The position numbers and the translations under genes are program-made. A DNA stretch of 64,000 nucleotides, from positions 62,001 to 126,000 of the forward strand of contig JAHRFE010000009.1 of the NCBI GenBank assembly GCA_019084245.1. The letters run 5' to 3'. The notes under the pieces were generated by a model. It had not been told where the DNA came from. It did no database searches and saw only the letters and a program-made list of their open reading frames with translations. Each line of letters begins with the position of its first letter. Position 1 is the stretch's first letter. Origin of the DNA: Hoeflea sp. GTDB taxonomy: Bacteria; Pseudomonadota; Alphaproteobacteria; Rhizobiales; Rhizobiaceae. This document shows positions 5,644-19,559 of this stretch, piece after piece.

Positions 5644-6393
5644 ATGCGCATCGGCATAATGGGGGCGTCAGGCCGTGTCGGCACCAAGCTCGTGGAGACC
5701 ATCATCGCCAGCCCGGGCCTCGAGTTGGCCGCGGCCCTGGTATCCGCTGCCTCGCGGCTCAATGGTTCGTCTGTTGCAGGTGGCGGAATCGAGTACCGGG
5801 CGGCCGACGCGGCAATCAACAGCCACTGCGATGTCATCATCGATTTCTCCAAGCCGGATGCAAGCCTCGCCCTGCAGGAGAGCATCGGCGGCAAGGCGAT
5901 CCCCATGGTAATCGGAACGACGGGTTTTTCTGCTGACGAGGAGGCGAGGCTACTTGGTTATTCCAAATATCGACCGATGCTTGTCAGCGCCAATTTCGCC
6001 CACGGTTTCGAAGCCTTCCGGCTCGCCGTCCTCGGATTTGCGCGGCAGATGCCGGCGGCAGAGCCGACGGTCATGGAAACCTATCATACACGGAAAAAAT
6101 CCGATCCGTCGGGCACCTCTCATTTGCTGGCTGATCAGCTTTGCGAAGCCCGAAGCACGGTGATGGGGTTTGCCGCCCAAAGACCGTCCATATCCGTGCA
6201 CCGCGAAGGCGAGACAGTTGGGATCAATGCAGTGCGCTTCGACATGGGCTCAGCCGAACTGGTGATGACCTATCAGGTGCACACGCTTGCGGCTTACGCC
6301 GAAGGAGCGATCGCGGCTGCCCAATGGCTCATCTCCGAACCGCGCGCACCTGGCCGCTACAGCCTGGCAGACAGCCTTAACGACAATGATTGA
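5644..6393 (+). CDS. dapB: Dihydrodipicolinate reductase-like protein (DapB family, divergent)
   Basis: A 249-residue protein of DapB length and layout. The nucleotide motif G-A-S-G-R-V-G (residues 7-13), the I-I-D-F-S block (65-69), G-T-T-G (91-94) and the S-G-T substrate motif (156-158) are present. The catalytic region normally reads E-x-H-H-x-x-K; here it is E-T-Y-H-T-R-K, so the first histidine is replaced by tyrosine (Y147). A good ribosome site (gaggagg) precedes the ATG. It sits in a catabolic operon beside a DapA-like gene, not in a housekeeping context, so it is likely a paralogue acting on a related cyclic imine. The gene symbol names the family, not a proven lysine-synthesis role. 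Confidence 0.75.
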   Translation: MRIGIMGASGRVGTKLVETIIASPGLELAAALVSAASRLNGSSVAGGGIEYRAADAAINSHCDVIIDFSKPDASLALQESIGGKAIPMVIGTTGFSADEEARLLGYSKYRPMLVSANFAHGFEAFRLAVLGFARQMPAAEPTVMETYHTRKKSDPSGTSHLLADQLCEARSTVMGFAAQRPSISVHREGETVGINAVRFDMGSAELVMTYQVHTLAAYAEGAIAAAQWLISEPRAPGRYSLADSLNDND

Positions 6394-6406
6394 GAGGAAT
6401 ACAGCC

Positions 6407-7324
6407 ATGAACGAACTCGCTCGCCAATTCAACGGCGTTTTCACCGCCCTGATCACGCCCTTCAAGGATGGCGCTGTCGACACCGTCGCCTTTGATGCGC
6501 TTGTGGAGCGACAATTGGCAGCCGGGATAACCGGGCTTGTGCCCGTTGGCACGACCGGCGAGGCGGCCACGCTTTCAGACGAGGAAGCCGATGCACTCAT
6601 TGCCCGGACCGTCAGGCTTGCAGCCGGGCGCGCTTTGGTAATGGCGGGCGCGGGCGCCAACGATACAAAAAAGACGATCGAGAAGGTGCGACGGGCAGAA
6701 GCCGCCGGCGCTGATGCCGTGTTGATCGTCACCCCGTACTACAACAAGCCGACGCAGGCAGGACTTGTCGCCCACTATAGCGCCGCCGCCGAGGCCACAT
6801 CGCTTCCCGTGATGCTTTACTCCGTCCCGGGACGGTGCGGGGTAGAAATCGCGCCTGAAACCTGCGCCCTGCTGATCCAGAAACATGCCAATATCGTTGG
6901 CATCAAGGAAGCTGGCGGTTCAGCCGGCAGGGTCACGCAACTGCGCGCGGCGTGCGGCGACCGACTGATCATTCACTCGGGCGATGACGGTTTGACGCTG
7001 CCCTTTCTCTCGCTGGGCGCCCTGGGCGTCACCAGCGTTGTCGCCAATGTCGCGCCAGGCGAAATGGTGAAGCTGGTGGAGGCCTGGAAGCGCGGTGACG
7101 CGGCTCAGGCGCTCATGCTCCATGAACTGATTGCTGAACTGACCGAAGGCATGTTCATCGAATCCAACCCGGGACCGGTGAAAGCGGCGCTGGCGATTGC
7201 AAATCTGGCAGGGCCAGAAATGCGCCTGCCCATGGTTCCCGTATCCGCAGCCAATCGCGAGCGCCTCTCGGACATCCTCGGACGCTTCACCTCCGCGTCT
7301 GCCACCTTCCAAGAAAGGTGCTAA
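6407..7324 (+). CDS. dapA: 4-hydroxy-tetrahydrodipicolinate synthase-like aldolase (DapA family)
   Basis: A 305-residue class I aldolase of the DapA/NAL family. The Schiff-base lysine lies in G-I-K-E-A (K167); the G-T-T-G-E motif (T49, T50), the tyrosine in T-P-Y-Y-N-K (Y112), the tyrosine in L-Y-S-V-P (Y138) and the arginine of P-G-R (R143) match the residues that in true DapA form the relay and bind the substrate carboxylate. The ATG at 6407 is used because the frame upstream runs into dapB and a gagaggaat site precedes it. It may condense or cleave a pyruvate-containing product in the operon's pathway. A role in ordinary lysine synthesis is possible but less likely given the neighbours. 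Confidence 0.8.
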   Translation: MNELARQFNGVFTALITPFKDGAVDTVAFDALVERQLAAGITGLVPVGTTGEAATLSDEEADALIARTVRLAAGRALVMAGAGANDTKKTIEKVRRAEAAGADAVLIVTPYYNKPTQAGLVAHYSAAAEATSLPVMLYSVPGRCGVEIAPETCALLIQKHANIVGIKEAGGSAGRVTQLRAACGDRLIIHSGDDGLTLPFLSLGALGVTSVVANVAPGEMVKLVEAWKRGDAAQALMLHELIAELTEGMFIESNPGPVKAALAIANLAGPEMRLPMVPVSAANRERLSDILGRFTSASATFQERC

Positions 7325-7424
7325 GCGACATCATCAGCTTTGCATTGCCTGTGGCGGATGGCCATAGGACTATCAGTTTTTGGCCTGCTGCATGACAGCT
7401 GCCAAAGAAGACAGGGGAACAAGA

Positions 7425-7514
7425 ATGACACAAAGGACTGACGCGAACCGGTGTCTCCGGTCTGATCATCATACTTTCGCGCAGGCGCGTCGGAAAACGG
7501 GGGGGCTGGAATGA
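7425..7514 (+). CDS. Possible 29-codon leader ORF coupled to the permease gene
   Basis: In the 186-base gap before the permease an ATG at 7425 follows a ribosome-site-like caggggaac and opens a frame of 29 codons. Its TGA overlaps the permease ATG as ATGA. The peptide is basic and polar and matches no family I know. The coupled stop suggests a translational leader, but the gap could equally be untranslated. Confidence 0.3.
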   Translation: MTQRTDANRCLRSDHHTFAQARRKTGGLE

Positions 7515-8176
7515 CCTACACCTGGGATTTCCATTCGGTCTGGCAGTACTGGGACCTGTTCCTCTGGGGGCTCTGGATCACAGTCGTCTACACCTTGGGC
7601 TCGATAGCGTTCGGCGTGGCGATTGGCTTTGCCACCTGTGCCGCGCGGCTATCCGGATCGATGATCCTGATCAGCATCGCGCGGGTCTATCAGGAAATCT
7701 TCCGCTGCACGCCGCTGCTCGTCCAGCTCCTGTGGTTCTACTACGCCTTCCCTCTTCTGGTCGGCGCTTCCATCGACAACCGTGTTGCAGCCATGCTGAC
7801 GCTTTCGCTCTACGTCGGCGCCTTCTATGCGGAGATCTTTCGCGGCGCGATCGTCTCGATTGACCGGGGACAGCGCGAAGCGGCCGCAGCAATCGGCATG
7901 AGTCCCTGGCAATCCATGACGCGGATCATTCTTCCGCAAGCGATGAAGCGCGCTCTGCCGGCCTTCATCAACCAGTCGGTCATCCAGTTCAAGAACACCT
8001 CGTTGGTATCCGTCATCTCGGTTGCCGATCTCGCCTATATGGCTGCTGTGGTAAACGGTCAGACCTATCGGCCACTGGAATCCTACACACTGATGGCTTT
8101 CCTTTACATTGCCATGCTCTTGCCGATCACACAGGCTGCAGACTGGGTGGAGCGCCGCCTGAGGGTGAGCGACTAA
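7511..8176 (+). CDS. Polar amino acid ABC transporter permease
   Basis: A 221-residue inner-membrane protein of the HisMQ/GlnP class with about five membrane segments. The coupling-helix EAA-type loop is visible ([10 protein letters not shown] near residues 119-128). Only one permease gene is present, so a homodimer is likely. The stop overlaps the ATPase start (TAATG at 8174-8178). With the ATPase and the binding protein at the left edge it would make a complete amino acid importer serving the catabolic enzymes of this operon. Confidence 0.9.
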
Positions 8177-8967
8177 TGGAACGGATGCAACACATGTCAA
8201 AGAACACAGACCCTGGTGAAGCCGTGATCGAAGCCATCGGCCTGCACAAGAGCTACGGCCCGATCGAAGTCCTCAAGGGGCTCGATCTGAAGCTGGAGCG
8301 CGGTGAGGTCGTTGCCCTTATTGGCCCGTCAGGTTCGGGGAAGTCGACCTTCATCCGCTGCCTCAACATGATGGAGATACCCACTGATGGCACCATCCGG
8401 TTTCGGCAGAAACCGATCGGCAAGTCCTTTCGCGACAAAGGCGCCCATTTGGGTATCGGGACGCTTCGGCGCCACGTCGGAATGGTGTTTCAACACTTCA
8501 ATCTGTTCCCGCACAAGACGGTCTTGGAGAACGTTACGGAAGGACCAATCGTGGTGTGTGGCCGTCCGAAACGGGAGGCCGAAGCCTTGGCTATGGAACT
8601 TCTGAATCAGGTTGGGCTGGCCGAGAAACACGCTGCCTACCCCAACCATCTGTCGGGAGGACAGAAGCAGCGGGTCGCCATTGCAAGGGCGCTGGCGATG
8701 GAGCCGGAAGTCTTGTTGTTGGATGAAGTGACCAGCGCACTCGATCCGGAACTGGTGGGTGAGGTGCTCGCCGTTATCCGGAACCTTGCAGAAAACGGAA
8801 TGACGATGGCCATCGTCACCCATGAAATGGCCTTCGCAGCCGATGTTGCCAGCCGGGTGATCTTCCTGGATCAGGGTGTAATTGCTGAAACTGGAACCCC
8901 GGAGGACGTGATCCTGAACCCGCAAAACCCCAGACTTCAGGGCTTCGTCGCTCGGTTCAAGGGCTAA
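8176..8967 (+). CDS. Amino acid ABC transporter ATP-binding protein
   Basis: A 263-residue ATPase with Walker A G-P-S-G-S-G-K-S, the signature L-S-G-G-Q-K-Q-R, Walker B L-L-L-D-E and the switch histidine in V-T-H-E-M. These and the short length match GlnQ/HisP proteins. Start codon overlaps the permease stop by one base, so the two are translationally coupled. A second possible start lies six codons in. Confidence 0.92.
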
Positions 8968-8971
8968 GCGC

Positions 8972-10048
8972 ATGGGCAAGAAACTCAAGGTCACCATAGT
9001 GGGCGCTGGAAACATCGGCACCGCACTTGCCGTAACGCTCGCTCAGAGCGAAGAGTTCTGCGTACAGGTTATCGACAGGTCAGAGGACGCACTCGACCGT
9101 CTGCGGTCGCTTAATCTAACAGCTGACCTGAGGAACATCAGCCACGCCGACGATCTGCAGAAATCCCTGAGCAATCAGGATGTGGTCGTTGCGGCTGTTC
9201 CGGCGCGGGCGCTTGACGAGATTGCCCAAGCTGCAGCTCGCGCCAATATTCACTATCTCGATTTCACTGGCATGACGCCACAAAGCATGGAGATGCTTGC
9301 TCCACTTGCCGCGCAGCGTGCGGTTTTCAAAGGTTGCGGTGTATCGCCTGGACTGATCACCAACGTGGCTTACGGACTGGCAATCAATTATGCGCCCGTT
9401 TCCGACCTGATCATCCGGGTTGGCGCAATTCCACGTTATCCTTCAAACCGGCTGGGCTATGGCCAGATCTGGAATGTCGACGGATTGATCGATGAATACA
9501 CCTTGCCGAGTACAGCCATCCGCAATGGCCAGCAAACCAGCCTGTCTCCGCTGGAAGAGTATGGTCAGCTAATGATCGACGGCGTGGCCTACGAAGAATT
9601 CATCACATCCGGTGGCATTGAAGATTTGTCGGTTTTTTCTGGCCTCGCCAGGAACACCGTGACGTTCAAAACCATTCGCTACCCGGGCCATCTCAACTAC
9701 ATACGGTTTCTGCTTGACGACCTCGGATTGCGCAACCGACGGGATATGCTGCGATCACTGCTCTACAACGCCTTGCCGGTCATAGAGGACGACGTCTTGA
9801 TTCTCGCGGTTACCGTGCGCGGCAATCGCGGCCATCAACCAACCGAACGCACTGTCTGCCATCGTTTTTCGCCAAACAAGACAGTTGGACCTTTCAACGC
9901 GTTAACCTCTGTTGCCACTGCCTACGCCGCTTCACTGCTCTCTATGCTCAACCGCGAAGAGATCGAAGCACGGGGCTTCGTGCCACATCACAAAGTCGAT
10001 GTTGAGACGCTGCTCGGTGGCGCTTTTCTGCGACCACTGATCGGATGA
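8972..10048 (+). CDS. Saccharopine dehydrogenase-family protein, lysine 6-dehydrogenase-like
   Basis: A 358-residue protein with an N-terminal NAD-binding motif (G-A-G-N-I-G, residues 11-16) and the two-domain layout of the saccharopine dehydrogenase family. Several blocks recall lysine 6-dehydrogenase of Geobacillus as I remember it: G-V-S-P-G-L-I-T-N, the W-N-V-D-G-L-I-D-E-Y block followed by I-R-N-G-Q, T-S-G-G and K-T-I-R-Y-x-G-H. That enzyme converts L-lysine to allysine, which cyclises to piperideine-6-carboxylate. It is four bases downstream of the ATPase and ends the operon. The substrate could also be another diamino acid. The lysine-dehydrogenase branch is likely, the substrate unproven. 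Confidence 0.75.
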   Translation: MGKKLKVTIVGAGNIGTALAVTLAQSEEFCVQVIDRSEDALDRLRSLNLTADLRNISHADDLQKSLSNQDVVVAAVPARALDEIAQAAARANIHYLDFTGMTPQSMEMLAPLAAQRAVFKGCGVSPGLITNVAYGLAINYAPVSDLIIRVGAIPRYPSNRLGYGQIWNVDGLIDEYTLPSTAIRNGQQTSLSPLEEYGQLMIDGVAYEEFITSGGIEDLSVFSGLARNTVTFKTIRYPGHLNYIRFLLDDLGLRNRRDMLRSLLYNALPVIEDDVLILAVTVRGNRGHQPTERTVCHRFSPNKTVGPFNALTSVATAYAASLLSMLNREEIEARGFVPHHKVDVETLLGGAFLRPLIG

Positions 10049-10130: not shown

Positions 10131-10196
10131 GACTGCATTATTCGTGCTCCAATCCCGGCGGCCCAGGGGTCAGTCTCAGAGCAGTTGCGGGAGGCC

Positions 10197-11450
10197 TTAT
10201 TTCCCAAGTTTGGCCTGTTCTAAGGACCAGTATTCCATCTTGAACAACTGGCTAGGCGTAAGCGGAGTGAAACGTCCATAGGATTCGGCGGCAAGCATCA
10301 CGCGCATCGACTGTGATGTCAGATCGGCAATGATCTGCGCCTCCCCTGCTGTTTTGCCGATTCCGACCATCCCGATATTTCGAATCTGGACGACCCGTGG
10401 CAGGCAATCGAGCATGACTTTGGCTTCCTTCGCCTCTGCCGCACCAGCGCGAAAATAGGCTTCGTAACGCCTCCCAAATTGTTTCAGGGCGCTGTCGATG
10501 GCATCCGCGCTCTCCATACCTTCCAGCAACAGCGGAAAGGGTTTGACACGAATGACGTGATCCGGCGTCACTGTGCCACGCGTAGCGAGGTCGGCCAGAC
10601 TCGGATGAGCCAGAAATGCGTCGATTGACGGGCCTGAGCGTGCGTCGATGACGATGCCATCGGTGAAAACAGAGCCGGCCGCCTGCAACCTCTCTTTCAG
10701 GAGGTCGAGGAAGGGATCTTCCCGCGGGCGCTCATCAGTGGGAAGGATTGATATGCCGCGACTGGCCAGATGGCGTTCCGCCATATTGACGAATTCAATC
10801 ATACGATCATAGGAGTCTCGGGCCGTGTCGCCGAAAGTGAACAGCCCGTGATTGACCAGCCACAGCCCTTCGCAACCGGGATTGGCCTCGGCGATCCGCG
10901 CAGCGGCAATAGACAGGTCATAGCCCGGCATAACATAGGGAACCACCGCCAGCCTCTTGCCATAGATCGCACGGCAGATAGAATCGGCGTCGGGTTGGTT
11001 GGCCAGAACCAGAACCGCCGTGGCATGGGAGTGATCGACGTATTTTGCCGGAAGAAATCCGTGCAGCAGGGTTTCGAGTGATGGATTGGGCGCCTCTGGA
11101 TCCAGCAGATTTGCCCGCAGCAGTGCGACCATCTGGGGATCGCTCAGTGCGCCGGCACGCCCTCCAGTGCGTGTTGCCTCAAGGTGCAAACCCGGAAGTC
11201 CCGGCGCCTCGATTGTCGCAAGATCCCAACCGCTGCCCTTGACGTGCATCACCGCACCGTTGGAGCCGCGCATTGTCTTGACCGAAGTATTGCCACCACC
11301 GTGCAGCACCAGGTCCGGGTCACCGCCAATCAGCCGCGATGTATAAATGCGTAGCGCCAGGTCGCGGTCAGCCGGATCATCACCGGCATCATTTGCCCAA
11401 CGGGCGGCATCATCATCGTTCCAGCGGTTTTCGGTCAGACTGACAGACAC
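10197..11450 (-). CDS. Class II aldolase/adducin-domain protein
   Basis: A 417-residue protein. The class II aldolase fold occupies about residues 25-270: a glycine-rich phosphate-binding stretch (H-G-G-G-N-T-S), zinc-ligand-type histidines in D-H-S-H-A-T and a third in V-N-H-G-L-F. It resembles the aldolase half of the long bifunctional aldolase/short-chain dehydrogenase proteins but lacks the dehydrogenase half. The GTG start is preceded by aagggag, which overlaps the end of lsrG. It is the last gene of the importer operon and takes the place that the thiolase LsrF has in E. coli, so it may perform the final carbon-carbon cleavage (inference). Confidence 0.8.
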   Translation of the reverse strand: MSVSLTENRWNDDDAARWANDAGDDPADRDLALRIYTSRLIGGDPDLVLHGGGNTSVKTMRGSNGAVMHVKGSGWDLATIEAPGLPGLHLEATRTGGRAGALSDPQMVALLRANLLDPEAPNPSLETLLHGFLPAKYVDHSHATAVLVLANQPDADSICRAIYGKRLAVVPYVMPGYDLSIAAARIAEANPGCEGLWLVNHGLFTFGDTARDSYDRMIEFVNMAERHLASRGISILPTDERPREDPFLDLLKERLQAAGSVFTDGIVIDARSGPSIDAFLAHPSLADLATRGTVTPDHVIRVKPFPLLLEGMESADAIDSALKQFGRRYEAYFRAGAAEAKEAKVMLDCLPRVVQIRNIGMVGIGKTAGEAQIIADLTSQSMRVMLAAESYGRFTPLTPSQLFKMEYWSLEQAKLGK

Positions 11451-11454
11451 GGGA

Positions 11455-11766
11455 CTACTCCCTTGCTTCGGTCAGATTGGACATCATCATCCGGTAGAAA
11501 TCCTTTGATCGCGGCCCGGTCATGATGTCGTCGAGCAGGGCCACAGTGGTTGCATAGTGAGGAGTATTGCGATGCGCATCGACCGCTGCCTCATCAACGA
11601 ACACCTCGTAGATGCTGAAACGCGTTTCATCATTGGGATCCTGAAGGACATCAAAACGCAAGTTTCCCGGTTCCTTTATGGTGCCTTCGTAGTTGATCCG
11701 GAAAGCATCGAGAAAATCCTCGATGCGATCCGGCTTCACTTGAATATGAACAAGTTGAACCAACAT
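11455..11766 (-). CDS. lsrG: LsrG-like isomerase, antibiotic-biosynthesis monooxygenase fold
   Basis: A 103-residue protein of the ABM fold. Its sequence follows E. coli LsrG closely over the full length, including the E-x-G-N-L-R-F-D-V-L-Q-D-P block (residues about 31-43), T-P-H-Y and M-T-G-P-R near the C-terminus. LsrG isomerises phosphorylated AI-2 (P-DPD) to 3-hydroxy-2,4-pentanedione 5-phosphate. The ATG at 11766 is chosen over the longer open frame because LsrG homology begins exactly there. Seven bases separate it from the mutarotase upstream. The assignment is strong because lsrK- and lsrR-like genes are in the same cluster. Confidence 0.88.
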   Translation of the reverse strand: MLVQLVHIQVKPDRIEDFLDAFRINYEGTIKEPGNLRFDVLQDPNDETRFSIYEVFVDEAAVDAHRNTPHYATTVALLDDIMTGPRSKDFYRMMMSNLTEARE

Positions 11767-11773
11767 TTCTGCG

Positions 11774-12265
11774 TCACTCCACTCCGGTCTGGCCGTGCTT
11801 GACGTTGAGCTCGTGACGTTCGGTCCAACTGTCGGGCACAGGTGCACCGGTGTTATCAAACCATTCGCGTACTGGAATACCCGACACCAGCGCAACGTTG
11901 CCCCAAGGCATCCAGGCGCCGGTGCGGACGATGAACTTGGCGTTGCGATAGCCGTCCTCATGGAACCACTCGTTGGGCTTCACACCGCCCTTGGCGTCAG
12001 GAAACACTTCGGCCACGCCGTTCCAGGCATTCGGGTTGTTGGCTTTGGCATCATCGATCATGTGATAGGCCTCGACCCACATATCCTGGCGGATCGCGCG
12101 CAACACGGTCAGCAGGTCCGGAATGCCTGGGCACAGCGCCAGGTCGATCACACGATCCTCATAGGCCATTGGATAACCGGCATCGACAACCAGCATGATG
12201 TCATCATGGCCCATCTCCGAGATCGCCTTGCTGAGCTTTACGTTTAGTATTCCCTTGCGTCGCAT
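11774..12265 (-). CDS. RbsD/FucU-type sugar mutarotase
   Basis: A 163-residue protein beginning with the family hallmark K-G-I-L-N and showing the conserved histidine in M-G-H-D-D (H20) and aspartate in V-D-A-G-Y-P. RbsD and FucU interconvert ring forms of sugars so that kinases or transporters receive the right anomer. An ATG with the ribosome site aaaggat starts it. It lies between the ABC ATPase and lsrG. AI-2 is a furanose-like molecule in equilibrium with open DPD, so a mutarotase would make sense here, but a conventional sugar substrate is equally possible. Confidence 0.85.
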   Translation of the reverse strand: MRRKGILNVKLSKAISEMGHDDIMLVVDAGYPMAYEDRVIDLALCPGIPDLLTVLRAIRQDMWVEAYHMIDDAKANNPNAWNGVAEVFPDAKGGVKPNEWFHEDGYRNAKFIVRTGAWMPWGNVALVSGIPVREWFDNTGAPVPDSWTERHELNVKHGQTGVE

Positions 12266-12298
12266 GTCATATCCTTTTTGCCAGTAAGTTCAGTTGAT

Positions 12299-13024
12299 TC
12301 AGGCGTGGCCCTGAACAATCAGTGAGATGATCTCGTCCTGCGTCGTCGTGGCCATGTCCCGGACCCCGGCCATGGTGCCCAGATGCAGGATCGCCACGCG
12401 GTCACATACCTTGCGGACATGCCCCAGATCGTGACTGACCATGATGATCCCGATTCCGCTATCGGCCAGTTCCCGCACGATGGTCAAAACCTCGTCGCGA
12501 GCACTGGGACTGAGGGCTGATGTGGGCTCGTCGAGGATGATATAGCGGCTGCCAAAGGCGGTGGTTCGGGCCAGCGCCGAGACTTGTCGCTGACCACCCG
12601 ACAGATGGCCCGATGGGGTGCGCACATCGAAGGGGCGCACCGAGAACCCGTTGACAATTTCCTGCGCCCGCTTGCGCATGGCGCCGTATTTGAGGAACCC
12701 GAGGGCGTTGGTCATTTCCCGTCCGAGAAAGATGTTGTGCACCACCGGCATGTCGTCGAACAGCGCCAGATCCTGATAAAGCATGGCGATGCCCGCATCG
12801 CTCGCATCCGAGGAATTGCGGAACTGATGCTCTTTGCCGTCCACCTCGATGGTGCCCGCGTCGGGCGTAACCGCTCCTGCGAGCACCTTCATCAGCGTCG
12901 ATTTTCCGGCACCATTGTCGCCAAGCAAACCGACAACCTCACCCGCCTCGACAGCCAAATCGATGCCCTCGATTGCCGTGACCGCACCGTAGTGTTTGGA
13001 AATTCCGCGAAGGACTACGCTCAT
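12299..13024 (-). CDS. Sugar-type ABC transporter ATP-binding protein (single domain)
   Basis: A 241-residue ATPase with Walker A G-D-N-G-A-G-K-S-T (residues 35-43), signature L-S-G-G-Q-R-Q and Walker B I-I-L-D-E-P. It has one nucleotide-binding domain, unlike the double-domain LsrA and RbsA. The ATG at 13024 is the start that aligns with the family. A strong intercistronic hairpin (13062-13088) separates it from the binding-protein gene. It powers the importer made with the genes at 13111 and 14280. Confidence 0.9.
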   Translation of the reverse strand: MSVVLRGISKHYGAVTAIEGIDLAVEAGEVVGLLGDNGAGKSTLMKVLAGAVTPDAGTIEVDGKEHQFRNSSDASDAGIAMLYQDLALFDDMPVVHNIFLGREMTNALGFLKYGAMRKRAQEIVNGFSVRPFDVRTPSGHLSGGQRQVSALARTTAFGSRYIILDEPTSALSPSARDEVLTIVRELADSGIGIIMVSHDLGHVRKVCDRVAILHLGTMAGVRDMATTTQDEIISLIVQGHA

Positions 13025-13061
13025 GTCATGTCTTCCAGATTGCAACTTGTATGTCTTTGAA

Positions 13062-13088
13062 CGCAGGGGCCGCTTGTGGGCCCCTGCG
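13062..13088 (-). other. Intercistronic hairpin after the binding-protein gene
   Basis: Perfect 10-base-pair inverted repeat (CGCAGGGGCC / GGCCCCTGCG) with a 7-base loop, between the binding-protein stop and the ATPase start. No run of T follows on the minus strand, so it is more likely an mRNA-stabilising or processing element than a full terminator. Confidence 0.7.
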
Positions 13089-13110
13089 CCGTGTCAGTCC
13101 GTGACGGACC

Positions 13111-14247
13111 CTAGCGGTCAAGCTGGCCGGAATAGCGGAAGGCGTAATCCGTCTCGGCGTCGATCTGCTCGGCCGTCATGGTGTAATCGAGCGGCTTGAT
13201 CGTCGCGGCCAACACCACGGGCACGTCATCGCCTTCGGCGTGCGCGCGAATGGCTTCGGCCACGGAAACACCCCAGTCGTCGTTGACGCGGAAAGCCGTC
13301 ACCTTCAAGCCGCCTTCCTTGATCGACTTCAGTTCGTCGGCGCCGCCGCCCCAGCCGTTGATGATGACATTGTCGAGCTTGCCACGTTCAGTCGCGGCGG
13401 ACAGAACGCCGAGCGCTACCGCGGTGTTGCCGGCGTGCAGCATGGTGATGTCAGGATGGCGGCTGAGCAGGGCCTGACCACCGCTGAACGCCAGCTCGCG
13501 GTCACCATTGGCCTCGAACTCATCAACCAGCTTCATGTTGGAGTTGGCTGTAATGCATTCGGCGAAGTGGTCGGAACGCTGGCTGTCGATCAGACCCGGG
13601 ATATAGCGAACCAGAGCGAATGTGCCTTCACCGCCGGTTTCGCCAATGACCCACCGGCACAAGGCTTCGGCGCCAATGGTATGATCAAATCCCACATGTG
13701 TGATCGGTTGCTTGTCCGTTCCCAGTGTGTCGACGAAGGGGTTCACAACATTCATCACCAGCGTCGGCAGGGCCTGGGCGAGGCGCGAGATATTGGATTT
13801 CTGTACCTGGTACTCCGACGGTCCGATCACGACGTAATCGAAATCGCCACCCAGAACCTGCTCGACCTGGACGCCTTGGCGGTCATGCTCGTCGGGGCGG
13901 ATCATGAATTCGGTCACTTCGAATGGAATCCCCATTTCCTCCAGCCGCGCTCTGGTCGAAATGTTCAGTCGCGCCCAGGCGTCAGAAGTCTCGAGGCTGG
14001 GAAACATCATTGCGATCTTCAGCGGCTTGTCATAGGTCTTCGTGCTCTTGACGGTATCCGCCTGCACCCGCTGCATGAACGCTTCCATTTTTGTGCGCTC
14101 TTCGGGCATCATCTGGTGCAGTTCGGGCAGCAGGAAATAACCACGCTCTTGTGCGCCTGCGGGCACCTCCTGAGCGGTCAGCGGCAGCGACATCGCAAAA
14201 AGCGCAGCACCCGTCATCAGTACGGTTCTCATGGATATGGATTTCAT
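13111..14247 (-). CDS. LuxP-like periplasmic AI-2/sugar-binding protein of an ABC importer
   Basis: A 378-residue secreted protein with a signal peptide (residues 1-26, ending A-M-S-L-P-L-T-A-Q). From about residue 35 it follows Vibrio LuxP more closely than LsrB or RbsB: R-P-D near 117, V-G-F-D-H (185-189), I-N-G-W-G-G-G (296-302), N-D-D (322-324), A-F-R-Y-S (369-373). Counterparts of remembered LuxP AI-2 contacts are S88, W91, N166, R224, T275, W299 and R320; two positions differ, E86 for Gln and A276 for Asp. The long open frame upstream is ignored because the ribosome site gggagg and the signal peptide point to the ATG at 14247. Ligand: AI-2 or an AI-2-like furanose (inference). Confidence 0.85.
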   Translation of the reverse strand: MKSISMRTVLMTGAALFAMSLPLTAQEVPAGAQERGYFLLPELHQMMPEERTKMEAFMQRVQADTVKSTKTYDKPLKIAMMFPSLETSDAWARLNISTRARLEEMGIPFEVTEFMIRPDEHDRQGVQVEQVLGGDFDYVVIGPSEYQVQKSNISRLAQALPTLVMNVVNPFVDTLGTDKQPITHVGFDHTIGAEALCRWVIGETGGEGTFALVRYIPGLIDSQRSDHFAECITANSNMKLVDEFEANGDRELAFSGGQALLSRHPDITMLHAGNTAVALGVLSAATERGKLDNVIINGWGGGADELKSIKEGGLKVTAFRVNDDWGVSVAEAIRAHAEGDDVPVVLAATIKPLDYTMTAEQIDAETDYAFRYSGQLDR

Positions 14248-14279
14248 CTTGGTCTTCCTCCCTTTGGTTATTCGTTGGA

Positions 14280-15326
14280 CTATTCTTCGGTCCGCGTATT
14301 GCGGCGCGAGTAGAGTCCGATGGTGATCAGAATGACTGCACCGGCGGCGACATGCTGCCAGAAGGCCTCGAATCCCAGGATCACGACAGCGTTGACGATA
14401 GTCGCCAGAAGCCATGCTCCGAGCAGGGTCCCGACGATCGAGCCACGACCGCCGAACAGGTTGGTGCCGCCGACGATCACGGCTGCAATGGTGTTGAGCA
14501 GGATGGTAACCGCGCCCGAGGCGACGACCGCATCGAGACGCCCCGTCAACATGATGCCACCCAGTGCCGCGATCAGACCCATGAAGACATACACGCCGAT
14601 GCGATAGTGCAAGACGCTGATCCCCAGCCGCTTGGCCGCTGTAGGATTTCCTCCGACGGCATGAAGCCGCGCGCCGACCTTGTGATAGGCAAATATGAAA
14701 TGGGCGATGATGATGACCGTCATCCCGATCACCAGCGGCACCGGAATACCCAGAAGACGCCCACGCCCGAGCCATGTGATCGCCTCAGGAAAGGCAAAGA
14801 ATACACCGCCTCCGGCATAGACCAGCGCGAGTCCGCGGAAGATCAACTCGGTCGACAGCGTGACGATGAAATCAGGCATCTTCAGCTTTGTGATCAGAAT
14901 GCCGTTGATCAGTCCACACAGCCCACCAGTGGCAAAAGCGATAACAATCGATAGCCACAATGGTAGACCGAAGTCCTTGAGCGCAGCAGCGAAGGCTACG
15001 CTGGACAGCGTCAGGATGGCCCCGATCGACAGATCGATGCCTCGCGCGGTGATCACAGCCGTCATCCCGACGGCGAGCAGCATGATGAGTGATGCATCGA
15101 TCGAGATGGCGCGCAAATTGCCGAGCGAAAAGAATGACGGCGCGGCGAACCCCATGACTACGGCGATGATGAGCAGCATGACGGCGGGTGCCGACAGCGG
15201 CACTTTTGTCGGCCCGAAGAGCGGCGGCAGGCTGTTTCGCCAATCCGCAACTTCAAGTTCAGCGCGCAACCTTTTGGCGGGATCTTCCCGATTTTCCTGT
15301 ACCAAGCTCAAGGCGTTCCCTCGCAA
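14280..15326 (-). CDS. Sugar-type ABC transporter permease
   Basis: A 348-residue inner-membrane protein of the RbsC/LsrC class with eight to ten hydrophobic segments and the conserved G-I-D-L-S-I-G-A block after the third segment. There is only one permease gene, where E. coli Lsr has two (LsrC and LsrD). The start is uncertain: no ATG is available, and TTG codons at 15326 or at 15311 (the latter with gcgaggg before it) are the candidates. The 13-base motif shared with the lsrR-side promoter lies 27 bases upstream, so this is the first gene of the importer operon. Confidence 0.85.
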   Translation of the reverse strand: MRGNALSLVQENREDPAKRLRAELEVADWRNSLPPLFGPTKVPLSAPAVMLLIIAVVMGFAAPSFFSLGNLRAISIDASLIMLLAVGMTAVITARGIDLSIGAILTLSSVAFAAALKDFGLPLWLSIVIAFATGGLCGLINGILITKLKMPDFIVTLSTELIFRGLALVYAGGGVFFAFPEAITWLGRGRLLGIPVPLVIGMTVIIIAHFIFAYHKVGARLHAVGGNPTAAKRLGISVLHYRIGVYVFMGLIAALGGIMLTGRLDAVVASGAVTILLNTIAAVIVGGTNLFGGRGSIVGTLLGAWLLATIVNAVVILGFEAFWQHVAAGAVILITIGLYSRRNTRTEE

Positions 15327-15352
15327 TCAATGAGATCATTTATTCTCTTGTC

Positions 15353-15373
15353 GAACATATGAACACATTGTTC
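15353..15373. promoter_or_regulatory. Candidate LsrR-type operator, importer promoter
   Basis: The 13 bases GAACATATGAACA (15353-15365) recur as the exact reverse complement at 16607-16619. Here two GAACA half-sites 8 bases apart are followed by an inverted TGTTC (15369-15373), giving a GAACA-N3-TGTTC dyad. The location before both transcription units of the cluster suggests binding by the SorC/LsrR-like regulator encoded between them. Confidence 0.6.
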
Positions 15374-15495
15374 GATTGATCTGTCAAGGAGTTCTTTCTC
15401 TGACAGCGCTCGTTTTTGCACTCACCTTTTCGCGCCACGACGCAATTGGACGCGGATCCAAAGACATTGGAATCGAGGGAAAAGGCTCTGGAGCC

Positions 15496-16428
15496 CTATT
15501 GCATCAATGCGTTGGCGGTGTCTTCATCGGTGACGAAGATGTCTATGAAGTCGCCCTGGAGAGCGGCCCGAATGGCGGGTATCTTGTCCGGGCCGCCTGC
15601 GACCGCGATCATTATCGGGCTTCCACGATAACTCTTCAGCGGCAAGCCGATCACCCGCTTATGCAGTGGAAAATCCAGCTCGCGGCCATCCTTATCGATG
15701 AAGCGGCACAGAATATCTCCCACCGCGCCACCGCGCCGCATGGCGCGTACTTCCGCTGGATGGACATAGCCATGACGAATGACGCTGGCGTTTTCGTCCA
15801 CCGCACCGATACCGACCAGTGCATAATCCGCCCGCAGCGCCATTTCCAATGTGCTGCGTACGCCAATGTCTCTCAACATAGCCTGCGCCACCTGTGGATC
15901 CTCGACGACAAGAGGGGCTGGCACGAGAAACATCTTCCGGTCGTTTCCGGCAAGCCTGAGACCGTCAACATAGGCCTGAACCCCGCCAGTCATGGCAACA
16001 AGGTCGATACTCCGGTCTTGAAACAAATGGCCCAGCCGGTTGATCGCTGCGCCGACGGTTTCACCCCAGCCGACTGCCAGAAGGCCGCCTTCGTGTAGCT
16101 TGTGCATCAAGACCTGCGCAGCCGCTTGACCCAATCTGTCACTGAGGGATTCGGCCTCCAAGTGGGGGATCACACGGACTTCTTTTAACTCGAACCTATC
16201 CTGAATGCGCCGCTCTATTTCCAGGCAGCCTTGCAGGGCAGAGTTGATCCGCACTTCGAGCATCCCCGTCCGTCGACCGTTTTCCAACAGCCGCGAGACC
16301 TTGATTCTTGGGAGCCCAAGTTTCTCGCCAATCACCTGCTGCGTAAGTCCATCATGGTAATAATACCAGGCCACCCTGGCCAATAGCGCATCCTCATCGG
16401 ACAAGGTGGCTACTTCACGCTCTTTCAT
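15496..16428 (-). CDS. lsrR: LsrR-like SorC-family transcriptional regulator
   Basis: A 310-residue regulator; E. coli LsrR is about 317. The N-terminal helix-turn-helix (residues about 15-55, W-Y-Y-Y-H-D-G-L-T-Q with L-G-L-P-R-I-K-V-S-R-L-L-E) and the C-terminal sugar-phosphate-binding domain (G-x-G-E-T near 120, A-M-T-G-G-V, V-G-I-G-A-V, G-A-V-G-D-I-L, V-A-G-G near the end) follow LsrR closely. LsrR represses the lsr operon until phospho-AI-2 binds. Here it lies between the importer operon (same strand) and the divergent LVIVD/lsrK genes. Probable own promoter in the 277-base gap upstream. Confidence 0.88.
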   Translation of the reverse strand: MKEREVATLSDEDALLARVAWYYYHDGLTQQVIGEKLGLPRIKVSRLLENGRRTGMLEVRINSALQGCLEIERRIQDRFELKEVRVIPHLEAESLSDRLGQAAAQVLMHKLHEGGLLAVGWGETVGAAINRLGHLFQDRSIDLVAMTGGVQAYVDGLRLAGNDRKMFLVPAPLVVEDPQVAQAMLRDIGVRSTLEMALRADYALVGIGAVDENASVIRHGYVHPAEVRAMRRGGAVGDILCRFIDKDGRELDFPLHKRVIGLPLKSYRGSPIMIAVAGGPDKIPAIRAALQGDFIDIFVTDEDTANALMQ

Positions 16429-16606
16429 CGGTGCCCCTCATGCGCGCCATACGGCAACGTTGGTGCCTGTGATTCCCGCTCATGAGTATCCCAACCGCTG
16501 CGGGAAGGGAAAATATCCCTGACGCATTCTGTTGAATGCGTATGAGAGTTCCGCCCTGCGCGTTTTGTTGCAGAGGCACGGAATGCTTGACGGGCAGATC
16601 GCAAGA

Positions 16607-16619
16607 TGTTCATATGTTC
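16607..16619. promoter_or_regulatory. Candidate LsrR-type operator, divergent promoter
   Basis: TGTTCATATGTTC, the exact reverse complement of the motif at 15353-15365. It lies about 90 bases before the LVIVD gene and about 180 bases before lsrR, in the shared divergent promoter region 16429-16705. Apart from this motif I see no other clear structure in that region. Confidence 0.6.
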
Positions 16620-16705
16620 TAAATCACATCAAATGATCTCTATGTAAAGTGGTCATCCTAGCCATCGAGATTCCGATGTTACCACAAACGACAGGAAGAA
16701 AAGCA

Positions 16706-17965
16706 ATGCCCAACAACGACCTGCGAGCGCCGGCCCACGCCTTGAACATGCGGCTTGTCGGACACTCCGATCAAGGCGGACGATCCGACGGAACCCAGAT
16801 CATGGTCCGTGATGGTTACGCCTATGTCGCGCATATCTTCTCTAAGGGATTCAGCGTTATCGACGTGCGCGACCCGGCAAATCCGGTCACCGTCAACTTC
16901 ATCGCTGCGCCGCCCAACACCTGGTCGCTGCATCTTCAGGTTCACGACAACTTATTGCTGGTGGTCCATGGGCAGGATCAGTTCTCCACACCCGAAAGCG
17001 ACGACGAAAGAAACTATTACAAGGCCGACACCCACGATACATCCAAGGCGATCGGCACTGACGAGCGCAACTACTCCGCAGGCATGGCAGTGTTCGACCT
17101 GAGCGATCCGGCAAGGCCGATCCAGATCGGTTTCATGCCGGTGAACGGTGTCGGTCTGCACCGGATCTGGTATGTCGGCGGCCGCTGGGCCTATGCCTCG
17201 GCCCAGATGCAGGGGTTTTCCGACTTCATCCTCATCACCATCGACATGTCGGACCCGAGCAAGCCCGAGATCGCCGGGAAATTCTGGTTGCCGGGCATGA
17301 ACATCGCCGCTGGCGAAACCCCGAACTGGCCCGTAAGCGAAGGCCGCTACAGCCTGCATCACCCAATTGTCCATGGCGACACCGCCTATTGCGGCTGGCG
17401 CGACGGCTGTCTTGTCGTGGTCGATGTGGCAGATCGTGCGGCGCCCAAATTGCTGGCGCACCGCAACTGGGCGCCGCCGTTCGGTGGGGGCACACACAAC
17501 TGCTTGCCGCTTCCCGACCGGGAGCTTCTGATCGTCGTCGATGAAGCCGTTCTCGACAATGAAGAGGATGGAGAAAAGCCGATCTGGGTTTTCGACATCC
17601 GGGAAAAAACAAATCCGATTTCGATTTCTACATTTCCCAAACCATCCGATCGCGACTACAAATCCGTGGGGGGACATTTCGGACCGCACAATATCCACGA
17701 AAACCGCCTCGGCAGTTTTGTCAGCTCCACCCTGATCTTCTCGACATGGCAGAACGGCGGCCTGAGGATACACGACATTTCAGATCCTTACAGCCCCAAG
17801 GAAGTCGGCGCGGTCGTTCCCCAGGCACCTTACAGGCATGTCGATCATCGTCCAGGCAGACCATTGGTCATCAACACAACGGATGTGTTCGTGGACAAGT
17901 CCGGACTGATCTATTTCACTGACTTCAGTGGCGGCGGATTGCATATTGCCGAATTCAAAGGCTGA
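16706..17965 (+). CDS. LVIVD-repeat beta-propeller-like protein
   Basis: A 419-residue protein without signal peptide, built from repeats of the LVIVD type: short units such as G-Y-A-Y-V-A, F-S-V-I-D-V-R-D-P-A-N-P, A-V-F-D-L-S-D-P and L-V-V-V-D-V-A-D recur along the whole chain and should fold as a propeller. It has several histidines in conserved-looking contexts (H-H-P near 225, G-P-H-N-I-H near 335, H-V-D-H near 395), which could bind metal. The ATG at 16706 has aggaag before it. It precedes lsrK by 28 bases, so the two are probably cotranscribed. The enzymatic function is unknown; lactonase or hydrolase activity on the signal would be one idea, without direct evidence. Confidence 0.75.
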   Translation: MPNNDLRAPAHALNMRLVGHSDQGGRSDGTQIMVRDGYAYVAHIFSKGFSVIDVRDPANPVTVNFIAAPPNTWSLHLQVHDNLLLVVHGQDQFSTPESDDERNYYKADTHDTSKAIGTDERNYSAGMAVFDLSDPARPIQIGFMPVNGVGLHRIWYVGGRWAYASAQMQGFSDFILITIDMSDPSKPEIAGKFWLPGMNIAAGETPNWPVSEGRYSLHHPIVHGDTAYCGWRDGCLVVVDVADRAAPKLLAHRNWAPPFGGGTHNCLPLPDRELLIVVDEAVLDNEEDGEKPIWVFDIREKTNPISISTFPKPSDRDYKSVGGHFGPHNIHENRLGSFVSSTLIFSTWQNGGLRIHDISDPYSPKEVGAVVPQAPYRHVDHRPGRPLVINTTDVFVDKSGLIYFTDFSGGGLHIAEFKG

Positions 17966-17993
17966 ATCATCCGCACAGCTCAGGGAGAACCAG

Positions 17994-19559
17994 ATGCCTC
18001 AGTATTACCTCGCCATCGATGCGGGCACAGGAAGCGGGCGTGCCGTGGTGTTCGACCAATCCGGACGGCAATGTGGATTGGGCCAGCAGGAATGGACGCA
18101 TGTCGACGAAGCCAACGTAACGGGATCGATGGCTTTCGATACCGGCGCAAACTGGCCTCTGTTGTGCCGTTCCGTGAGGCAGGCGCTGGCCGACGCAGAT
18201 GTCCGCGCCGACCAGATCAGCGCAATCAGCACCACTTCGATGCGCGAGGGAATCGTTCTGTACGACGAATCGGGCGCCGAGATCTGGGCCTGTGCGAATG
18301 TAGACGGCAGGGCGACGGCCGAAGTCGCTGCGCTCAAGGCACGCGACGCAGGGCTGGAGCGGGAGTTTTATCGCGTCAGCGGTCAAACCTTCGCGCTAGG
18401 GGCTTGGCCGCGGCTTGAATGGCTGCGTCACAACCGGCCAGATATCTTTGCGCGGACCGCAAAACTCTCGATGATCAATGACTGGATAGCGGCCCGGCTA
18501 AGCGGTGAAATTGTTGTCGAGCCCTCCAATGCCGGCACCACGGGGCTTCTGGATCCCACCACCCGGCAATGGTCGGACACCTTGATCGAAAAGGCCGGCC
18601 TTCCCCGCCGGCTGTTTCCCGATGTGCTGGAACCTGGTTCAATGATCGGTCGTGTGACCGCGAAGGCGGCAGGTGAAAGCGGACTGGCACAAGGGACCCC
18701 CGTGATCTGCGGCGGCGGCGATGTGCAGATGGGTTCCCTCGGGTTGGGCGTGACCAGCGATGGTGATGCAGCGATATTGGGAGGCACATTCTGGCAGCAG
18801 ATCATCAATATTCCAGCGGGACGCACCGACGAGACAATGCGCGTACGCATCAATCCCCATGTAATCGGCGGGCTAAATCAGGCCGAGTGCATTTCGTTCT
18901 TCGTCGGACTGACAATGCGCTGGTTCCGCGACACCTTTTGCCATGCTGAGCAAGCCTTGGCAAAGGCGCGGGGCATCGACGTCTATTCCTATATGGAAGA
19001 GTTGGCCGCCAAGGTGCCGCCCGGCAGCAATGGCATTATCCCGGTTTTTTCCGACGCCATGGACTTCGGGCATTGGTATCACGCCGCACCGTCTTTTCTC
19101 AACATGTCCATCGAACCGGGCCATACGACACGAGCCAGCCTGTTTCGTGCGCTGGAAGAAAACGCAGCTATTGTGTCGAGCATCAATCTGGAACGGGTTA
19201 TCGAATTTTCCGGCGTCAGCATCGACAAACCTGTTGTATTCGCCGGAGGCGCCTCAAAGGGCGCTTTGTGGGGGCAGATCCTAGCCGATGTTTTAGGCCG
19301 TGAAGTCGCTTTGCCCAAGGTACGGGAAGCAACAGCTCTCGGCTGTGCCGCCGTCGCGGCCTACGGCGTCGGTGCATTTTCCACCCTCGTCGAGGCAGGC
19401 GCTTCCATGTCCGGGATCGACAAGATCCTGACTCCCAATCCAGCCCTTGCCGGAGTTTACCGCGAAACGCGCGCCCGCTGGGAAGCGGCATATCCAGCGC
19501 AAAAACAATTGGCTGACCGCAACGTCACCACATCGATGTGGCGCGCCCCCGGTGTCTAA
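17994..19559 (+). CDS. lsrK: Autoinducer-2 kinase (LsrK-like FGGY kinase)
   Basis: A 521-residue FGGY-family carbohydrate kinase that follows E. coli LsrK (530 residues) over its whole length: A-I-D-A-G-T-G-S near the N-terminus, S-M-R-E-G-I-V-L-Y, W-A-C-A-N-V-D, P-S-N-A-G-T-T-G-L-L-D, L-G-G-T-F-W-Q-Q, F-F-x-G-L-T-M-R-W-F-R-D, W-Y-H-A-A-P-S-F and F-R-A-L-E-E-N-A-A-I-V-S. LsrK phosphorylates AI-2 in the cytoplasm, trapping it and creating the inducer of LsrR. The ATG at 17994 has cagggag before it. This is one of the most secure functional calls in the window. Whether the host makes AI-2 (luxS) cannot be seen here. Confidence 0.92.
   Translation: MPQYYLAIDAGTGSGRAVVFDQSGRQCGLGQQEWTHVDEANVTGSMAFDTGANWPLLCRSVRQALADADVRADQISAISTTSMREGIVLYDESGAEIWACANVDGRATAEVAALKARDAGLEREFYRVSGQTFALGAWPRLEWLRHNRPDIFARTAKLSMINDWIAARLSGEIVVEPSNAGTTGLLDPTTRQWSDTLIEKAGLPRRLFPDVLEPGSMIGRVTAKAAGESGLAQGTPVICGGGDVQMGSLGLGVTSDGDAAILGGTFWQQIINIPAGRTDETMRVRINPHVIGGLNQAECISFFVGLTMRWFRDTFCHAEQALAKARGIDVYSYMEELAAKVPPGSNGIIPVFSDAMDFGHWYHAAPSFLNMSIEPGHTTRASLFRALEENAAIVSSINLERVIEFSGVSIDKPVVFAGGASKGALWGQILADVLGREVALPKVREATALGCAAVAAYGVGAFSTLVEAGASMSGIDKILTPNPALAGVYRETRARWEAAYPAQKQLADRNVTTSMWRAPGV

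Follow-up and report, generated by a model that had tools for sequence, protein, structure and literature searches.

A probable AI-2 uptake and catabolism cassette with a LuxP-family importer in Alphaproteobacteria

Can a LuxP-family protein serve an lsr-type pathway as the binding protein of an importer? A 2025 survey of gut genomes still describes LuxP as exclusive to Vibrio and AI-2 as internalised through LsrB (PMC12503165). The question is raised by a locus in the window, as we call the whole 64,000-nucleotide stretch of Hoeflea sp. DNA that we analysed, where genes resembling lsrK, lsrR and lsrG accompany a LuxP-like binding protein and an ABC transporter. We argue that the locus is probably an alphaproteobacterial lsr-type cassette for AI-2 uptake and catabolism, with AI-2 as the putative ligand and with a LuxP-family importer replacing LsrACDB.

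Gene content and distribution of the cluster

An earlier note on this DNA had recognised LsrK-, LsrR- and LsrG-like genes in one 9.4-kb locus, and their matches to the respective Lsr models (795.5, 305.5 and 125.1 bits) bear this out. Positions 10197-19559 hold nine genes. Those named in that note are open frames at the coordinates it gives; the class II aldolase, the RbsD/FucU protein and the LVIVD propeller were missing from its gene list and belong to the same cluster. The genes and two predicted operators are as follows.

10197..11450, minus strand: class II aldolase/adducin-family protein, 417 aa (PF00596), matching the aldolase half of PRK08324-type models
11455..11766, minus strand: LsrG-like P-DPD isomerase, 103 aa (NF007791, 125.1 bits, cut-off 135)
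11774..12265, minus strand: RbsD/FucU-type sugar mutarotase, 163 aa (PF05025)
12299..13024, minus strand: ABC ATPase with one nucleotide-binding domain, 241 aa (PF00005)
13111..14247, minus strand: LuxP-like periplasmic binding protein, 378 aa, with an N-terminal signal sequence judged by eye
14280..15308, minus strand: ABC permease of the BPD_transp_2 family (PF02653), start codon uncertain
15353..15365, plus strand: predicted LsrR-type operator copy 1, RAACATATGAACA, upstream of the importer genes
15496..16428, minus strand: LsrR-like regulator, 310 aa (LsrR model, 305.5 bits, cut-off 486)
16607..16619, minus strand: predicted LsrR-type operator copy 2, between the divergently oriented lsrR and LVIVD-lsrK genes
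16706..17965, plus strand: LVIVD-repeat beta-propeller protein, 419 aa (PF08309)
17994..19559, plus strand: LsrK, autoinducer-2 kinase, 521 aa (NF008187, 795.5 bits, cut-off 528)

The sequences establish that this set and its order are conserved. Because the nine-gene order recurs, unchanged, in 8 other alphaproteobacterial genomes, the cluster is not a chance assembly. All nine genomes found with a window-type LuxP carry the full order, namely that of the window, G793, Hoeflea sp. YIM 152468, G526, two Stappia, Roseicitreum plasmid pRA01 and two Pseudotabrizicola; G793 (locus L107) was found after the trees were built and is absent from all trees and from the operator count. We then compared the DNA of distinct loci with the first 40 kb of the window, counting L102 and L108 (G790) once, as they lie on the same contig as L058. 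Similarity of L054, L058, L059 and L107 covered the whole cluster and nothing else (from 10196-10207 to 19552-19559), and that of L061 was confined to the inside of the cluster. Since similarity stops at the cluster edges where it was compared, the nine-gene cluster is, judged by its DNA, a transferable cassette. None of three pattern hits on viral contigs encoded a relative, and a search for LsrK at E ≤ 1e-110 in a draw of 385 alphaproteobacterial genomes returned the window's own copy and no other. The 4.82-Mb genome of the window encodes no LuxS.

The LuxP-like protein and its transporter

The four best PDB sequences for the protein encoded at 13111-14247 were all Vibrio LuxP, matched over nearly the full length at 160-161 bits; the first match after LuxP, a sugar binder, reached 49.5 bits, and LsrB was absent among the 42 PDB matches. 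Binding proteins of the same genome, taken from PF13407 places, included no LsrB orthologue, as none scored above 64.3 bits with the E. coli LsrB; true alphaproteobacterial LsrB proteins are 73-80% identical to the E. coli protein. A phylogeny against LuxP, LsrB and RbsB sets, suggested as a check in the earlier note, placed the window's protein in a LuxP-like branch supported at 100/99, apart from RbsB and LsrB. For these trees, upstream in-frame extensions were trimmed from 13 rows and 10 of the genome's own binding proteins served as outgroup.

Inside the LuxP-like branch, the window clade formed a lineage of its own beside the clade holding Vibrio LuxP, with a support of 94/84. This support dropped to 79/52 without the far outgroups, the tree program flagged long branches meeting at the join of the two clades, and an AU test did not reject the grouping of the window clade with 13 LuxP-like rows from ABC cassettes (p = 0.197). 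As the AU test leaves this alternative standing and the support falls without far outgroups, we do not claim that the window type is the true sister of Vibrio LuxP. The view that the binding protein follows LuxP and not LsrB thus agrees with the result of searching by sequence; the tree, however, shows the protein as a separate lineage. An AlphaFold model built from six close sequences had a pLDDT of 53; Foldseek placed eight LuxP chains on top (E 1e-19 to 1e-17), with TM scores of 0.32-0.42 and an rmsd of about 18, and at these values we dropped the ranking as structural proof.

As had been noted before, the importer consists of a single permease and a single-domain ATPase; the ATPase is 241 aa long and has one Walker A motif, one signature (LSGGQ) and one Walker B motif. 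In each of the nine genomes, the genes for permease and ATPase flank that of the binding protein. The permease open frame of the window starts with TTG at 15326. It had also been stated that LuxP is known as a sensor partner and not as an ABC subunit. LuxP-like proteins with such a role are not confined to this locus, since class and order searches found others beside permease and ATPase genes, without lsrK nearby. Such cassettes, from Ruegeria pomeroyi (SPO_RS21100), Phaeobacter inhibens, Tateyamaria omphalii and others, share with the window a LuxP-like protein, one permease and one single-domain ATPase; in the R. pomeroyi and Phaeobacter cassettes the permease is 46-47% and the ATPase 40% identical to those of the window, whereas LsrC and LsrD are 28-31% identical to the permease. 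They differ in that the stretches read carry no annotated LsrK, LsrR or LsrG and have L-rhamnonate or other sugar genes nearby. Relative to Vibrio LuxPQ, the window's protein is 28-29% identical over nearly the full length and has the N-terminal extension, but it lacks an adjoining LuxQ, is accompanied by an ABC importer and an AI-2 kinase, and falls in a separate clade.

We then examined the seven residues through which LuxP hydrogen-bonds AI-2 (Q77, S79, W82, N159, R215, T266 and R310), as listed in an excerpt of PMC9687752. Six are identical in the window's protein (S79, W82, N159, R215, T266 and R310), and Q77, which corresponds to E86 of that protein, is replaced by E in all eight window-type rows. 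In addition, D136 of LuxP is S in the window clade (T in Pseudotabrizicola) and D267 is A. Of 37 LuxP-like rows, 36 have the same residues as LuxP at five of the contacts (S79, W82, R215, T266 and R310), and these include rows from ABC cassettes beside L-rhamnonate genes. Position 159 is A in 11, N in 6 and D in 1 of the 18 ABC rows, so the 6 rows that retain N159 likewise have six of the seven contacts. The pocket is therefore no proof of AI-2, because most contacts are family-wide and six of seven also occur in one-third of the ABC rows.

These observations bear on an alternative in which the core does process AI-2 and the LuxP-like importer feeds a different small sugar, such as a deoxypentulose or its borate diester, into the LsrK-LsrG-aldolase route, AI-2 being incidental. 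The family-wide contacts would fit such a role, as would the crystallisation of LuxP with 1-deoxy-L-xylulofuranose-borate (title of PDB entry 4yr7) and the L-rhamnonate dehydratase, PdxA and dihydrodipicolinate-synthase-family genes that adjoin the R. pomeroyi and P. inhibens cassettes. However, N159 is kept in the window clade and lost in 12 of the 18 ABC rows, though kept in the other 6; each of the nine genomes found has the importer together with the core genes; and both the tight LsrK match and an operator that is that of LsrB-type lsr loci (see below) speak against it. We consider this alternative unlikely.

The catabolic core and its operator

LsrK exceeds the cut-off of the NCBIfam autoinducer-2 kinase model by 267 bits, an equivalog-level match, and scores 625 bits against LsrK in the PDB, about six times the 102 bits of the next kinase. 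The LsrG model is the sole NCBIfam match of the 11455-11766 protein, under its curated cut-off, and two LsrG structures are the best PDB matches. Likewise, LsrR is the better of two NCBIfam matches of the regulator, under the curated cut-off, and gives its best PDB matches. The 11774-12265 protein reaches 91.7 bits with the D-ribose pyranase model (cut-off 93) and matches RbsD in the PDB. LsrF is absent from the cluster; a single 31% relative lies about 40 kb from it. The modelled LVIVD propeller (pLDDT 67.5) has a Sphingobium phosphotriesterase as its first-ranked fold and resembles a haloalkylphosphorus hydrolase by fold; the corresponding sequence profile was not significant (E = 0.015), and the context of LVIVD genes in four plasmids revealed no common partner pointing to function.

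As a reference we used seven LsrB-type alphaproteobacterial lsr loci, all from a plasmid collection and read for about 9 kb on each side of lsrK (Sinorhizobium meliloti pSymB, Rhizobium sp. WL3, Paracoccus aminophilus, Tritonibacter mobilis and others). All seven, S. meliloti included, contain LsrK, LsrR, LsrG and the class II aldolase, with identities to the window of 51-56%, 50-55%, 51-63% and 50-56%, respectively, and none contains LsrF. In contrast to the window, their importer is LsrACDB (a two-domain ATPase, two permeases and LsrB), and the seven stretches gave no separate LuxP-like, RbsD or LVIVD match. By gene content, then, the window's cluster differs from LsrB-type loci in its importer, RbsD and LVIVD. 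The lsr system of E. coli K-12 resembles the window's cluster in LsrK (54% identity), LsrG (52%) and LsrR (42%) but has LsrF in place of the aldolase and LsrACDB in place of the LuxP importer. A Lacticaseibacillus paracasei plasmid lsr locus also contains rbsD, two genes away from lsrK, but is of the LsrACDB/LsrF type.

In the LsrK tree, the window type and the LsrB-type alphaproteobacterial group formed separate clades, neither nested in the other, and the LsrR tree showed no nesting either; the trees therefore do not support a derivation of one core from the other. From the shared core we infer that the importer of an lsr-type locus was exchanged, which, given the separate LsrK clades, is a reading and not a demonstrated event.

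Across the 4.82-Mb genome, the 13-base operator occurs without mismatch at exactly two places, both inside the cluster, and the reversed 13-mer at none. The operator AACATATGAACA is present, exactly or with one mismatch, in both intergenic regions of all eight window-type clusters examined (G793 left out); 6 of the 7 LsrB-type lsrR-lsrA regions also have it, with no more than one mismatch. When two mismatches were allowed to a 12-mer, the 4 occurrences in the window were within chance (7/100 shuffles), so the exact copies alone stand out. Sharing of the operator by the E. coli lsr intergenic region or by Alloyangia was rejected: the best matches had 3 mismatches, and 118/300 and 45/300 single-letter shuffles, respectively, did equally well. 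A sigma-70 scan of 15300-16720 gave no promoter.

Sugar operons typically encode proteins such as RbsD, an aldolase and an FGGY-type kinase. As all three are present and LsrR and LsrG score under their curated cut-offs, the locus could be a sugar-catabolic operon unrelated to AI-2 whose kinase, regulator and isomerase merely resemble LsrK, LsrR and LsrG. The kinase scores argue against this, as does the sharing of aldolase, LsrK, LsrR and LsrG with seven LsrB-type loci, among them the S. meliloti locus; according to an excerpt of PMC2728841, the AI-2 receptor of S. meliloti has been crystallised in complex with the ligand. We regard such an operon as very unlikely. It is hardly credible that the LuxP-like protein is a dual-use receptor that, besides the importer, also serves a sensor kinase encoded elsewhere in the genome: four LuxP-like genes of other Alphaproteobacteria directly adjoin LuxQ-like kinases (L016, L018, L019 and L021), but a scan of the whole window, as distinct from the rest of the genome, gave no LuxQ-like match, and permease and ATPase genes flank the binding protein throughout the nine genomes.

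A putative route for AI-2 and its implications

AI-2 is the best-supported substrate of the locus. In the periplasm, the LuxP-like protein would capture a form of AI-2, a cyclic DPD hydrate with or without borate, and pass it to the one-permease, single-domain-ATPase ABC transporter, presumably for inward transport. Cytoplasmic steps would follow: the RbsD-like mutarotase may assist in opening or interconverting ring forms, LsrK would phosphorylate DPD, LsrG would isomerise P-DPD, and the class II aldolase, taking the place of LsrF, would presumably cleave the product. LsrR is predicted to bind the operator and repress both transcription units; P-AI-2 would release LsrR, so that the cluster would be on once imported AI-2 is phosphorylated. 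Since the host has no LuxS, AI-2 would come from other species, in scavenging, signal interference or eavesdropping. The proposal in the earlier note of a different way to import and process AI-2 thus survives for import, through a LuxP-family binding protein and a dedicated ABC importer within an Lsr-type cluster, but not for processing, as the core is usual for Alphaproteobacteria (7/7 LsrB-type loci).

More tentatively, the window's protein may represent a further class of AI-2 receptor, in which a LuxP-family protein feeding an ABC importer takes up borated AI-2 (S-THMF-borate) for catabolism by Alphaproteobacteria unable to make AI-2; the LVIVD propeller or the RbsD-like protein would then help to free the sugar from borate. 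We see this as possible, with the balance somewhat against it. S-THMF-borate is the AI-2 form so far tied to Vibrio LuxP.

If the locus works as read, it provides a second type of binding protein and transporter for AI-2 import, and organisms deemed AI-2-blind for want of LsrB may take AI-2 up. The presence of the class II aldolase with both importer types suggests that alphaproteobacterial lsr loci may manage without LsrF. Finally, because sea water is rich in borate, a LuxP-type importer would also allow a direct test of which organisms consume borated AI-2, for example with strains of Stappia, Hoeflea or Pseudotabrizicola.

The nine-gene cluster and its LuxP-like binding protein

The earlier note had described a putative AI-2 import and processing locus in which a LuxP-like binding protein stands within an Lsr-type cluster. 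This locus is real and comprises nine genes, including LsrK-, LsrR- and LsrG-like genes:

Genes of the cluster (window coordinates)
within 10197-19559, minus strand: lsrR, permease, LuxP-like binding protein, ATPase, RbsD/FucU, LsrG and class II aldolase genes
within 10197-19559, plus strand: LVIVD beta-propeller gene (16706-17965)
within 10197-19559, plus strand: lsrK

LsrK scored 267 bits over the NCBI autoinducer-2 kinase cut-off. For LsrG and LsrR, the corresponding Lsr model was the sole or best match, yet below the curated cut-offs. The binding protein proved LuxP-like by sequence, matching Vibrio LuxP over nearly its full length at 160-161 bits, against 49.5 bits for the next solved structure, a sugar binder. 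The phylogeny that the note had proposed as a check (49 rows, including RbsB, LsrB and sugar binders of the same genome) placed it in a LuxP-like family separated from all of these at 100/99, and not among ordinary sugar binders. Within this family, our protein and its close orthologues (the window type) formed a clade at 100/100, which joined at 94/84 a clade (100/100) that unites Vibrio LuxP with nine rows from Alphaproteobacteria. The alternative grouping, with 13 LuxP-like rows of the ABC-cassette type, gave a p-AU of 0.197.

The permease shared 46-47% identity with its counterparts in two further LuxP-like ABC cassettes and 28-31% with LsrC/LsrD of E. coli and Rhizobium sp. WL3. The ATPase shared 40% identity with the single-domain ATPases encoded in these two cassettes and 37% with the first half of RbsA. 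At least three gene neighborhoods of LuxP-like proteins can be told apart: next to LuxQ-like kinases, within ABC cassettes that have no Lsr genes close by, and within this cassette. Two of the other ABC cassettes, in Ruegeria pomeroyi (L055, 7914-9068) and Phaeobacter inhibens (L066, 5989-7128), neighbor genes for L-rhamnonate dehydratase, PdxA and a dihydrodipicolinate-synthase-family protein, which suggests that part of the LuxP family binds sugars or sugar acids. A LuxP-like gene of Vibrio sp. THAF190c (L056, 7893-8987) also groups with the ABC-type rows; no permease or ATPase match adjoins it, and the same record has a second LuxP-matching place.

In four alphaproteobacterial loci (L016, 9540-10661; L018, 9499-10620; L019, 9550-10665; L021, 4630-5817), LuxP-like genes lie directly beside LuxQ-like sensor kinase genes, and their products keep the seven AI-2 contact residues and fall in the Vibrio LuxP clade. 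LuxPQ may therefore extend past Vibrio and not be a speciality of that genus. Two further loci, L017 and L020, showed weak kinase matches nearby. Genome G526, which also holds the cassette, has a second LuxP-like gene (L049, 9511-10734) with residues as in LuxP, followed by a gene that, judged by eye, seems to encode a membrane PAS-GGDEF-EAL protein (6743-9514); this pair would suggest that AI-2 controls cyclic di-GMP.

Recurrence of the cluster and a shared intergenic motif

When GTDB contigs were scanned with our protein and one of its orthologues as queries, 56 stretches fitted a pattern and 5 of them coded for a relative: one in Hoeflea sp. YIM 152468 and two each in Stappia and Pseudotabrizicola. 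Among plasmids, 10 records matched, nine at 28-38% and one at 86%, and Roseicitreum antarcticum pRA01 joined the set. Among genomes of the order, 14 of 397 had a LuxP-like match (E <= 1e-20), with identity above 41% only in G526 and the window, and the 20 further genomes listed there from the same family had no match. Six of 18 genomes of the genus matched, three with the window type; these added G793, G790 being the Hoeflea contig already counted. A draw from the class gave 11 matches in 385 genomes, none above 38% except the window.

The order and orientation of all nine genes were identical in the 9 genomes found, and the other binding proteins of this type were 77-96% identical to ours. 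In G793 (L107), eight genes match over their length; the LVIVD gene (6144-7399) is spread over two frames that overlap, which may reflect a broken propeller or a misreading. When the first 40 kb of the window were compared at the DNA level with six loci, two of them on the same contig, every match fell within the cluster. Matches to four loci (L054, L058, L059 and L107) started at 10196-10207 and stopped at 19552-19559, also between members of one genus. The G+C content was 58.1% in the cluster and 61.5% in the rest of the window. The constant gene order, the confinement of DNA likeness to the cluster, the G+C content and the patchy presence together give the cluster the pattern of a putative transferable cassette.

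The 12-mer AACATATGAACA, with at most one mismatch, was present in both intergenic regions of all 8 window-type clusters examined (G793 lies outside this count), and no further copy within one mismatch occurred in these loci. RAACATATGAACA has two copies in the 4,822,139-base genome, at window positions 15353 and 16607, and its reversed sequence has none; allowing two mismatches gave 4 in the window, within chance (7/100 shuffles). The 12-mer was also found within one mismatch in the lsrR-lsrA region of 6 of 7 alphaproteobacterial loci with the classical importer and LsrB (LsrB-type loci), and in these six at most 1 in 300 shuffles was as good. In the lsr regions of E. coli and Alloyangia, the match did not stand out against shuffles. 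A TTGAC box can be read near these putative operators in the printed intergenic regions, but a strict scan found no promoter there.

An enzyme core common to LsrB-type loci

Seven LsrB-type loci were read, all from the plasmid collection (7 of 79 LsrK-matching records, 53 of which are Sinorhizobium): those of Rhizobium sp. WL3, S. meliloti 2011, strain XES5 (deposited as Roseateles, organism unverified), Shinella zoogloeoides, Alloyangia pacifica, Paracoccus aminophilus and Tritonibacter mobilis. LsrACDB, LsrR, LsrK and LsrG were present in all seven, together with a class II aldolase like that of the window (50-56% identical), and LsrF was found in none (L092-L098), making the aldolase a possible LsrF replacement in these loci. 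The S. meliloti AI-2 receptor is reported to have been crystallized with its ligand (PMC2728841), and added AI-2 to elicit a response in a strain of Ruegeria mobilis that has genes of the LsrB type (PMC6333666). By gene context, the aldolase is thus tied to AI-2 processing. The proposal of a different way to import and process AI-2 therefore fits the importer and, given the common core, the enzymes less so. The LsrK tree kept the window type (100/100) and the LsrB-type alphaproteobacterial group (96/99) as separate clades, so no order of origin follows for the two arrangements.

In Lacticaseibacillus paracasei, too, rbsD lies close to lsrK, in keeping with RbsD as a helper; in that plasmid lsr cluster (L100, 8989-11342), cupin and rbsD genes lie downstream of lsrK. 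On a Deinococcus psychrotolerans plasmid (L099, 8992-10961), lsrK precedes a cupin gene and is the sole lsr gene of the stretch that was read. Plasmids from Erwinia, Rahnella, Klebsiella and rhizobia also encode LVIVD proteins, ~58-61% identical to ours (among the 40 of 66 matching records listed), and four stretches (L088 to L091) carry LVIVD genes in contexts other than the cassette. The first-ranked fold for our LVIVD protein was a Sphingobium phosphotriesterase.

Candidate ligand and source of AI-2

In structure 1JX6, AI-2 is described as hydrogen-bonded by LuxP S79, R310, R215, T266, N159, W82 and Q77 (PMC9687752). All seven contacts are kept throughout the Vibrio LuxP clade (11 rows), and six in all 8 rows of the window clade, where E replaces Q77. 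Among 18 ABC rows, 11 carry D instead of Q77 and A instead of N159 and so keep five contacts, 6 carry the D alone and keep six, and L022 keeps two. Shared contact residues cannot prove AI-2 as the ligand; gene context favors it as the candidate. By analogy with LuxP, the E would place an acid in the pocket that there holds the borate anion, and the bound form could therefore be unborated. The structure prediction also proposed in the earlier note was run, and the AlphaFold model was too poor for judging the pocket.

In a 2008 paper, the LuxP homologues reported from beyond the Vibrionales came from a few Oceanospirillales and two delta-Proteobacteria, and LsrB was reported for S. meliloti and Rhodobacter (PMC2561040). 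A putative low-similarity Lsr-like set reported in Rhizobiales in 2012 has a different gene content, without LuxP in the set as reported (PMC3420918). Two alphaproteobacterial LuxP candidates were mentioned in 2024, with data not shown there (PMC11069264), and LuxP was called exclusive to Vibrio in 2025 (PMC12503165). In titles and opening lines of abstracts of the open-licence papers searched, we found no description of a LuxP-type importer in an lsr cluster.

LuxS had no match in the genome (the control search was positive in 5 of 14 named genomes), and AI-2 would therefore be supplied by other organisms. An LsrF relative (31%) is encoded ~40 kb away and does not qualify as an evident orthologue. 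Although the cassette differs from the Lsr system in having neither LsrACDB nor LsrF, two defining Lsr features, and from the LuxP of LuxPQ in having no LuxQ, one LuxP feature, its gene content looks like that of a working Lsr system.
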